Assembly (NCBI RefSeq): GCF_015207285.1
Contig: NZ_JADEXD010000010.1
Coordinates: 1-64,000, forward strand
Reading direction: 5' to 3'
Origin: Tychonema sp. LEGE 07203
GTDB taxonomy: Bacteria; Cyanobacteriota; Cyanobacteriia; Cyanobacteriales; Microcoleaceae
DNA: 64,000 nucleotides
Shown: positions 42,419 through 44,664 of the stretch, piece by piece
Numbering within the stretch: the first letter of the stretch is position 1
Layout of the letters: each line of letters begins with the position of its first letter
Made by a program: the position numbers and the translations under genes
Notes under the pieces: generated by a model
The model's input: only the letters and a program-made list of their open reading frames with translations
Databases searched by the model: none
What the model was told of the DNA's origin: nothing

Positions 42419-42453
42419 CTTGTCCCCCCCTTATTAAGGGGGGCTAGGGGGGT
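42419..42453. repeat. CCCCCC-TT-AAGGGGGG-type hairpin repeat
   Basis: CTTGTCCCCCCCTTATTAAGGGGGGCTAGG and following G-run form a short C/G-rich hairpin. A longer copy with the same core is at 55777-55880. Confidence 0.65.
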
Positions 42454-42498
42454 AAAAGCTAATTCAAAAACATTAATAAAATTGCTATAAACAGCCCA

Positions 42499-42798
42499 TC
42501 AAGCTAACAATTCATAGCGGCGGATATCGGGAGGCCCAACGGCCAAACCGTCTAATTTCTGCACGGCGGCTTGAAGGTGATTTGAAGCGAGATGTTGTTC
42601 TAGCAAAGCTGAACTTTCCCACTCTTCAACAAAGGTGAAATCTGTAGGATCGGCTTGATTTTGCAACAGTTCGTATTTGATACAGCCTTTTTCTTGGCGA
42701 GTTGGCTCTATAATGCTCAGCAGCAGGGATTTAAGTTCTGCTACTTTGTCGGGATTGGCGGCGAGGCGGGCGACTACTCGCAAGGTTGGTTTGGACAT
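42499..42798 (-). CDS. ABM-type antibiotic biosynthesis monooxygenase-like protein
   Basis: A small ferredoxin-like-fold protein of 99 residues with the family phrases VVARLAANPDKVAELKSLLL, QEKGCIKYELLQNQ and FVEEWESSALLEQH. Members are cofactor-free quinol or polyketide oxygenases or stress proteins; the substrate is unknown here. It is divergent from the BglII-like gene, whose ribosome-binding site lies immediately upstream of its start. No Shine-Dalgarno-like motif is visible on its own strand. Confidence 0.85.
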   Translation of the reverse strand: MSKPTLRVVARLAANPDKVAELKSLLLSIIEPTRQEKGCIKYELLQNQADPTDFTFVEEWESSALLEQHLASNHLQAAVQKLDGLAVGPPDIRRYELLA

Positions 42799-42804
42799 AG
42801 GAGA

Positions 42805-42812
42805 AAGGAGGA
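42805..42812 (+). promoter_or_regulatory. Strong ribosome-binding site that decides a non-standard start
   Basis: AAGGAGGA is an almost ideal anti-16S match. The only codon at the right distance (6 bp) that also aligns with the N-terminus of BglII is ATT at 42819. An in-frame stop TAG at 42798-42800 excludes any start further upstream. No ATG, GTG or TTG occurs in this frame before 42915. Confidence 0.8.
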
Positions 42813-42818
42813 TCTGCT

Positions 42819-43481
42819 ATTTTAATTGAATTTACGGATTTCAATGGGGCAAGCACTGTCATCGGTAACTACTGTAGCGCAGAGTGGAACCAAATCAGCA
42901 GCGTACTTGCTGCTATGCCGCTGCACGTAAAAGCTTCAGCTCAAGCTGGATTTCTGGGCGATGCAGTTTTCGATCCTGTAGCAACAAATCAATACATCAA
43001 AACAGAGTTGGTCAAACTTGGATGGCAAGCGAGAATCCCGATTCCGCCGGTGTACCGATTTTTGGGAACAGATGTTGACTTTGGCTCTGCTGGTGCGATT
43101 GTAGAAGTTCAGTTTTCTCACTATTCATTTCTCTTAAACAATACAGTGCGATCGCAATTGTTTTTTAACACTAATACACCTCTCACAGGACAGCCCGTTA
43201 GGGTTGTTATTATAGTTACAAAATCACAAATGTTTCCTGCTGCTAATAGCAGCCTTTACTACGAGCAAGCTGTGAACCAGTTAACAGTATTATCTGCCAA
43301 TCTATTTAATGTACCGATCAGAATAGTTGGTTTGTTCAAGGAAAGGAATACAACAGTACCTGCAAAATTGACTGTTTACAGCGCTCAAACATCAAGGACA
43401 ATAGTAACTCAGGAAGAGCGTGAATGTCAAATAATTTCAGGGCGCTCGCCCCGCAGTCGCAGTTTTATTCGGATGATGTGA
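42819..43481 (+). CDS. Type II restriction endonuclease, BglII-like, with apparent ATT start
   Basis: The protein is clearly homologous to BglII, which cuts A/GATCT. From residue 33 it reads MPLHVKASAQAGFLGDAVFDP, TNQYIKTELVK, FLGTDVDFG, VEVQFSHYSFLLNNTVRS and SSLYYEQAVNQL, all close to the BglII sequence as I recall it. The catalytic set D84, E93 and Q95 of BglII corresponds to D87, E96 and Q98 here. Counting from the ATT at 42819 gives 221 residues (BglII 223), and the first residues (ILIEFTDFNG) align with the BglII start. The ATG at 42915 would lose 32 residues. It is tail-to-tail with its methyltransferase, 11 bp apart. Confidence 0.88.
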   Translation: MLIEFTDFNGASTVIGNYCSAEWNQISSVLAAMPLHVKASAQAGFLGDAVFDPVATNQYIKTELVKLGWQARIPIPPVYRFLGTDVDFGSAGAIVEVQFSHYSFLLNNTVRSQLFFNTNTPLTGQPVRVVIIVTKSQMFPAANSSLYYEQAVNQLTVLSANLFNVPIRIVGLFKERNTTVPAKLTVYSAQTSRTIVTQEERECQIISGRSPRSRSFIRMM

Positions 43482-43492
43482 AAAACGCTGTA

Positions 43493-44590
43493 CTAGCTCC
43501 ACAACTCAAGTTCTAATTGCTCTCCAATTTTAGTAGAATTCAGTGTTTTCTTACCGTTGCCATTTAGCTTGAGGTCTACTGGTGGAGCTTTTCCCCGAAT
43601 ATTCGCAGCAAAAGCAGCTTCCTCATAGAGCAAGCGTTTCTCCATTTCTTCTAAGTGATACTCTTCGGGATATATTTTTGCTTTGCTGCGTTCTGTTGGT
43701 TTTTTACCTACTTGTACGTCAAACCGAAATGCTTCTATTGGCTGTCCGGTTTTTTCTACATAGTCTCGCAGAGTTTTTAAGTTGGGGAAATAGCCGCGCT
43801 CGTCCGGTTCCCCGCTTAAACGACGCAGCGCAACTTGATAATATTTTAGCTCCAATTCTGCACCGATAAAATGCCGATCGCACTTTTTAGCTACAACGGC
43901 CGCCGTACCCGAACCCATATAAGGATCGAGAACAACATTACCTTTCAAGGTTGTAGTCAAGACAATTCTAGCTATTAAGTCTTCGGGAAATTGACAGGGA
44001 TGTATAGTTTGTTCTTCGTGGTTGTGTTTGACGTTGCGGAACATCCAAATGTCGCCTGGGTTTTTCCCGTCAGGATTACATGAAAGTTCGCCTTTGCGAG
44101 AACCCCGGTAATGTTTTTTATTTTGATACTTTTGCGGTACTCTAATATCGTCTAAGTTAAATGTATATTCATCGGATTTAGTAAACCAAAGAATTGTCTC
44201 GTGGCGGCATGAGAATTTCTTCCGGCCGTGCAAACCGTGCTGTCTCCCCCAGATAATTCGATTCCGAGGAATTAACCCGCAGGATTCGAGAATTGGGAAC
44301 AAGCGAATATCGAGCGGAATTAGCATACCCCGATCGGAGAAAGCACCGACTTGCCAGAACAGCGAACCTGATTTTTTGAGAATTCGGCTGCACTCTTGCA
44401 GCACAATTCTCTGTTCTTCTAAATAAATATTGAGAGCTTGCTTGGTCTCGTATTCCTTGCCCAAATTGTAGGGAGGAGAGGATACTACTAAATCAACGCA
44501 TTCATCTGGCAAGCTGCTCAGAAGTTCCAGACAATTTCCCAGAAATATCCGATCTAGCGGGAGCTGTTCTCGGTTCTGGTGCTGCTGCAT
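43493..44590 (-). CDS. DNA methyltransferase (beta-type, N4-cytosine or N6-adenine), partner of the BglII-like enzyme
   Basis: It should protect the host from the adjacent endonuclease. The catalytic SSPPYNLGKEYE motif IV stands near the N-terminus. The SAM-binding DPYMGSGTAAVVAKKC motif I lies near residue 222, the order typical of the beta class. SPPY favours N4-cytosine methylation, as reported for M.BglII, but N6-adenine cannot be excluded. The 365-residue protein appears intact. A TTG is in frame seven codons upstream, but the ATG at 44590 is preferred because an AAAGG lies just ahead of it. Confidence 0.9.
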   Translation of the reverse strand: MQQHQNREQLPLDRIFLGNCLELLSSLPDECVDLVVSSPPYNLGKEYETKQALNIYLEEQRIVLQECSRILKKSGSLFWQVGAFSDRGMLIPLDIRLFPILESCGLIPRNRIIWGRQHGLHGRKKFSCRHETILWFTKSDEYTFNLDDIRVPQKYQNKKHYRGSRKGELSCNPDGKNPGDIWMFRNVKHNHEEQTIHPCQFPEDLIARIVLTTTLKGNVVLDPYMGSGTAAVVAKKCDRHFIGAELELKYYQVALRRLSGEPDERGYFPNLKTLRDYVEKTGQPIEAFRFDVQVGKKPTERSKAKIYPEEYHLEEMEKRLLYEEAAFAANIRGKAPPVDLKLNGNGKKTLNSTKIGEQLELELWS

Positions 44591-44664
44591 TTGCTTTGCC
44601 TTTAATTTCAAAAAAAGTTAGACCTCAACTGAAGATAACCCAAACCAGTCAATTAGTCAATACC

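Follow-up and report, generated by a model that had tools for sequence, protein, structure and literature searches.

The window, by which we mean the whole stretch of 64,000 nucleotides that was analysed, carries a gene similar to that of the restriction endonuclease BglII, with a divergent gene before it and a convergent methyltransferase gene after it. The features of this locus are the following.

42499..42798, minus strand: divergent gene for an ABM-domain protein (Pfam ABM, 1.1e-19; orthologue in 28 of 29 genus genomes)
42804..42811, plus strand: Shine-Dalgarno (SD) sequence AAAGGAGG, 7 nt before the ATT (duplex energy with the anti-SD core -11.9 kcal/mol)
42819..42821, plus strand: ATT, putative translation start codon, aligned with BglII residue 1 and with the ATG of six relatives
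42819..43481, plus strand: gene for a BglII-like type II restriction endonuclease, 220 codons plus TGA (phmmer, PADLOC, AlphaFold2, Foldseek)
42915..42917, plus strand: codon of the internal Met33 (in the conserved MPLH); no canonical codon precedes it, but translation probably does not begin here (SD energy -0.9; codons 2-32 constrained)
43493..44590, minus strand: convergent gene for the partner DNA methyltransferase (N6_N4_Mtase), with ATG at 44590 or TTG at 44611 (Pfam PF01555, 5.6e-56; PADLOC MTase_II, 6.3e-120)

By direct reading of the plus strand, TAG at 42798-42800 closes the frame upstream, and frame 42801-43481 is open to the TGA at 43479-43481, with 220 codons when counted from the ATT at 42819. 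Canonical codons (ATG, GTG or TTG) are absent in frame between this TAG and the ATT at 42819-42821, and the first one is the ATG at 42915 (codon 33), just as a preliminary description of this DNA had stated. That description also mentioned a nearly perfect SD 6 bp ahead of the ATT, and AAGGAGGA is found at 42805-42812 with the ATT six bases on. Its span for the gene, 42805-43481, was right at the end and not at the start, where 42805 belongs to the SD and the gene would begin at 42819. Only 20 nt separate the ATG of the ABM gene from the ATT. RNA folding near the start showed nothing unusual (z 0.90), and for this reason a hairpin brake is not claimed. A sigma-70 promoter scan of 42450-43600 gave none on the plus strand upstream of the start.

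The protein was matched with BglII (1d2i) by phmmer with an E-value of 3.5e-60, query residues 9-221 aligning with BglII residues 3-214, and with REase_II by PADLOC (1.1e-62). The AlphaFold2 model had a mean pLDDT of 90.5, and its best solved match in Foldseek was again BglII 1d2i, with TM 0.94 and 47% identity; Pfam and NCBIfam searched with the endonuclease matched no family. The active-site residues of BglII, which we take to be Asp84, Glu93 and Gln95, have their equivalents in D87, E96 and Q98, of which D87 and E96 are invariant and Q98 is nearly invariant in 29 sequences. By homology the gene would encode a BglII-type endonuclease with the site A^GATCT. It resembles BglII (1d2i, 1dfm, 1es8) by homology over nearly the whole length and by the same predicted fold, but it differs in having an AUN codon where BglII residue 1 aligns. 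The first residue of BglII is presumably Met, and the ATT was said to align with it; this agrees with the pairing of query residue 9 with BglII residue 3, which puts residue 1 on the ATT.

A putative cognate methylase lies alongside the endonuclease, as in a BglII-type system. Among the 59 homologous loci compared below (L001-L059), tblastn found a match to it in 54, the others being L010, L026, L033, L035 and L058. Neither a collection of phages nor viral contigs scanned by pattern contained a match to the endonuclease; plasmids gave one distant relative with 26.7% identity.

The first 32 residues look like part of the protein. Over ten pairs of related genes dN/dS was 0.217 in codons 2-32 versus 0.203 in the rest. 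AlphaFold2, with 29 aligned sequences, predicted residues 2-8 as a strand and residues 11-18 and 20-32 as helices, with pLDDT of 93-98 across the first 40 residues (the first four blocks of ten). Translation could instead begin at the ATG of Met33, giving 188 residues and leaving the upstream homology as a relic; Met33 is the first canonical codon and is at least 90% conserved among the 29 sequences. But the SD is essentially absent there (energies with a median of 0.4 over 28 rows, best -3.9, window -0.9), and the equivalent Met is internal in BglII. Given the constraint on codons 2-32 and their predicted secondary structure, we consider a start at Met33 very unlikely and regard residues 2-32 as translated. 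The preliminary description had traced BglII homology upstream of this ATG to the N-terminus; the alignment reaches BglII residue 3, and the constraint upstream is equal.

Homologues were searched in several overlapping genome sets. Matches were present in 2 of the 29 genomes of the genus (the window's own counted), in 24 of 388 genomes sampled from the order, in 6 of 388 sampled from the class (five already known and one weak) and, for the family of G259, in 31 of 217. Ten loci came from named genomes, nine of Nostoc or Richelia and one of Phorm 6. From the 59 loci, 12 duplicates over the compared stretch and 8 loci without a readable 5' end were removed, which left 39 non-redundant rows.

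The column aligned with the ATT contained ATT in 20 rows, ATC in 10, ATA in 2, ATG in 6 (L014, L023, L025, L028, L029 and L033) and CCT in one, L009, whose 5' end is broken; the ten ATC rows are close relatives and were counted as one lineage. ATG, GTG or TTG occurred between this column and the upstream in-frame stop in 0 of 39 rows, the stop lying 2-20 codons upstream. It lies two codons before the column in L004 and five codons in L024, L026 and L052, so that there is little room for another start in these four. As judged from the alignment, this column is a start column, because six rows have ATG there and BglII begins there. A non-canonical AUN codon at the homologous position is conserved across species, in 32 of 39 rows; these 32 belong to one clade, whose members span four family groups (f1, f4, f8 and f33). 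Sister genomes had been proposed as a check, and both a congener and members of other genera had ATT. Full length (at least 200 codons) was reached by 25 of the 32 AUN rows, and early stops were found in L005, L010, L026, L034, L035, L040 and L053.

The neighbouring genes were examined by a like search in the 39 loci. All 34 methylase genes whose 5' end could be read offered a canonical start (in one further match it could not be read, and the other loci had no match). So did all 29 controller-like genes, which are described below, with GTG among the choices in 28 of the 29. By this comparison the AUN start is specific to the endonuclease gene, and its neighbours are canonical. As a side observation, GTG is the sole available start in 23 of the 29 controller-like genes, which is another weak-start habit of the same systems.

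The AUN codons stand behind strong SD sequences. In the 20 nt before the start column, the SD energy of the 32 AUN rows was -5.8 to -11.9 kcal/mol with a median of -8.9, and that of the six ATG rows was +1.3 to -6.3 (p 0.00013 by the Mann-Whitney test). The two ranges overlap between L014, which has the strongest pairing of the ATG rows, and L054 and L056, which have the weakest of the AUN rows. For 2000 random 20-mers taken from the window the median was -1.9, with 1.4% reaching -8.9 and 8.9% reaching -5.8. For ATG-started open frames of at least 200 codons, whose starts were set mechanically, the median was -2.95 in the window (34 frames) and -2.8 in loci L002-L010 (33 frames), and -5.8 was reached by 21% and 24% of them, respectively. 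The longest exact match to the SD core ends 6-9 nt before the start in 26 of 32 AUN rows, at 8 nt in 20 of these; the remaining six (L020, L021, L022, L054, L055 and L056) have variant cores, in which the match measure picks another piece. The contrast does not amount to 32 independent events, because the AUN rows are one clade, and the association of strong SD and AUN is largely one evolutionary event.

Since an AUN codon behind an SD-like sequence is common to a clade across four family groups, a functional rare ATT start appears strongly supported, and initiation at the AUN codon is in our judgement very probable.

The history of the codon was followed on trees. A tree of 30 full-length proteins and BglII gave one ATG/non-ATG change by parsimony, the broken L009 being scored as non-ATG. 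With the partial rows included, the AUN rows and L014 formed a clade (support 85/85) with the other ATG rows basal, and two changes were obtained; the second falls on L014, a pseudogene that has ATG at the column and stops within its frame and that groups with the window's lineage (91/85). Several deep tree branches are weakly supported. Inside the AUN clade no full-length row has ATG. By parsimony, the AUN genes would derive from one ATG-to-AUN change deep in the family. The 25 full-length AUN rows showed two changes within AUN, one to ATC and one to ATA, versus 2-5 changes at each of six conserved internal Ile columns. Because these internal columns drift alike, the drift count by itself does not prove constraint on a start codon.

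A recent ATG-to-ATT mutation attenuating the gene had been offered in the preliminary description, and a sequencing error at 42819-42821 had been named as what would refute the ATT. The error is excluded because many independent genomes have AUN there, and the mutation does not fit a change which by parsimony is single and deep. As a congener and other genera share the ATT, we give a recent mutation or error in the window genome a negligible chance.

Genus genomes without the gene keep traces of it. A pattern search found a 5'-end stump of about 12 codons beside the ABM gene in 16 of 26 of them (L062-L088 except L076), with ATG in the start column of 7, AGG in 7, ATA in 1 and AGA in 1. Because these stumps remain beside the ABM gene, an ancestor probably had the system at this site, and most members of the genus have lost it by deletion. 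The ATG of some dead stumps may come from decay or may be an ancestral ATG, and the latter would weaken the single-origin picture locally. ATT is kept in G253, which belongs to another genus of the same family, and in the remnant of L088. When inspected by eye, the stumps had no SD at proper spacing, and the stump of L071 was also seen by eye. The deletion remnant at 1762-1882 of L088 reads ATT TTA ATT, followed by a stretch matching window positions 43008-43063, and is thus a dead copy with ATT.

In 29 of 39 rows a small XRE protein is encoded within 700 nt upstream of the endonuclease, a place that in the window is occupied by the ABM gene. The window has no controller-like gene within 700 nt upstream and so does not count as a controller-dependent system; it is one of 7 of 32 AUN rows where none was found in this distance, with the SD and the AUN kept. 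We call the XRE protein a "controller" from its place and size, because the copy in L002, which matched Control_protein of PADLOC (4.2e-07) and weakly C.BclI (1.9e-05) and C.AhdI (0.00013), matched other XRE families as well or better (HTH_VI of PADLOC, 9.7e-08; 3f6w, 2.9e-14). Among the 25 AUN rows having such a gene, 23 have its stop exactly 2 nt ahead of the AUN; the distance is 3 nt in L004, and in L044 there is an overlap by 1. On the strand opposite to the ABM gene, a frame of about 50 codons ending at +8 of the ATT is open in L001, L005 and L034, and it is probably a shadow of the ABM coding.

The 2 nt distance in these 23 rows would also be compatible with a controller-endonuclease fusion made by frameshifting or stop read-through, the AUN then being an internal Ile codon; ATT, ATC and ATA are Ile synonyms, and a C-R fusion is mentioned in PMC4824078. 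But the window and the other rows just counted have no controller-like gene within 700 nt to be fused with, the frame relation varies in L004 and L044 while the SD spacing is 8-9 nt in both, and outgroups have ATG at the same column. Such a fusion is therefore very improbable, and we return to the AUN codon as a start.

How an AUN start may act can be proposed as follows. The strong SD would set the 30S subunit so that the initiator tRNA sits on the near-cognate AUN, which initiation factor 3 (IF3) would tend to reject, and the endonuclease output per transcript would be slow. In the ancestor of the cyanobacterial clade ATG would have changed to AUN, and the codon would then have drifted among ATT, ATC and ATA. 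A weak start with an SD just strong enough would make a fixed translational brake keeping the endonuclease below the methylase. In most lineages this brake would add to the controller-like protein, and in the window's lineage it would work with no controller gene adjacent. Because of the known biology of IF3, it is plausible that the ATT keeps the enzyme level low, and reduced output from the AUN start is likely. We infer discrimination by IF3, and low dosage as the selected benefit. A strong SD could, however, offset the weak codon so that the output is not low at all. The best explanation, to which we incline with moderate confidence, is that the endonuclease is throttled by a conserved AUN start, which IF3 disfavours and the SD rescues in part; that AUN was selected as a brake has in our view a similar, somewhat favourable chance. 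The infC gene of the window genome appears by eye to be ATG-started, so autocontrol of IF3 through AUU is not seen there.

The AUN start may also be real but neutral, tolerated with a strong SD and low demand. A single origin and a column drift that resembles ordinary synonymous drift are compatible with this, and SD strength may compensate, as reported for GUG and UUG starts (PMC5622118). On the other hand, ATG is one base away, yet 0 of 25 full-length AUN genes have it on a tree of 5.1 changes per site; within the clade ATG is found only in dead copies (L014 and the deletion stumps), and switches from AUG to AUU were reported as one in 61,358 ancestral AUG starts (PMC5622118). We regard the neutral start as unlikely but serious, and prefer the selected brake. 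Extended to the whole clade, a selected AUN with a tuned SD would hold the endonuclease below the AUG level, restriction would be sensitive to IF3 or the ribosome state, and reversion to AUG would be self-destructive and found only in dead copies; this extension is tentative, and we would sooner doubt than assert it.

Some non-canonical starts are already known. The infC gene of E. coli (ATT) and sigR of Streptomyces (GTC, with a conserved AGGAGGTG) are examples (PMC5472188). Like the gene studied here, sigR has a conserved non-canonical start with an extensive SD across species and was misannotated; its start is GTC in 32 of 34 cases and GTT in 2, and it is repressed by IF3 (PMC5472188). In contrast, sigR encodes a sigma factor with a GUN start proven by experiment, whereas here a putative AUN start of a restriction gene in several families is read from sequence. 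E. coli infC shares the AUU start and the discrimination by IF3, which is conjectural here, but its AUU serves autoregulation, and infC of the window genome appears to start with ATG (E. coli infC is named in PMC5472188). When IF3 was raised in vitro, the full-length share became smaller for AUU read by a CAU anticodon (PMC10158994). In a reconstruction of 61,358 AUG starts, a switch to AUU was counted once, and stronger SDs tended to accompany GUG and UUG starts (PMC5622118).

In PvuII-type systems the controller gene likewise ends beside the start of R, and a delay of the endonuclease is needed; translation of C and R is coupled in Esp1396I, and in Eco72I a role of C in translation is described (PMC2997769). 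For pvuIIR, tests of the overlap and of hairpins showed no translational control of R, and the way the endonuclease is delayed or limited is said to be unknown for most restriction systems (PMC2997769). The present case differs in that the brake would be the start codon, and in that no controller gene adjoins the endonuclease in the window.

No restriction gene with an AUU, AUC or AUA start was found among the literature matches listed, from a search with subscription journals mostly outside its coverage. As far as this literature goes, a clade-wide AUN start on a restriction endonuclease is new, while conserved non-canonical starts as such are not. A conserved weak start codon, if true, would mean a simple dosage control that is readable from the sequence, and it would add a broadly conserved gene to the list of those starting with AUU, AUC or AUA, which to our knowledge is short. 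If ATG, GTG and TTG are the sole starts that an annotation accepts, these genes would be shortened to begin at an internal Met or at some codon further on.

The genomes were also examined for the supposed site. AGATCT occurs 0 times in the window versus 12.8 expected, and the two genus carriers, with 77 and 75 sites, rank lowest among the 29 genomes of the genus; the chance of this ranking would be 1 in 406 for unrelated genomes and is weakened by relatedness, and one of the two carriers, G004, has a broken gene. Congeners without the gene are also low (G024 95, G015 100, G026 124), which suggests that the gene was lost recently or that a different system has a site overlapping this one. Across the family of G259, the AGATCT/TCTAGA ratio had a median of 0.023 in 31 carriers (23 judged full length, one of the 23 ATG-started) and of 0.143 in the remaining 186 genomes (p 5e-6 by the Mann-Whitney test and 0.0035 by permutation within genera), while 78 of the 186 non-carriers were also below 0.08 and several genera showed no difference or the reverse. 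Carriers that are not low were G749 (0.527, with an open ATT gene), G370 (0.255, with an ATG start), G231 (0.245, partial) and G738 (0.143). Site avoidance in most carriers is thus confounded by their relatives, and restriction at AGATCT is likely in these lineages as a whole, not gene by gene. In the congener Phorm 6 (G004; L005, L012 and L013) the SD and the ATT are kept, the endonuclease is broken into two pieces in different frames, and the methylase is 94% identical to that of the window.
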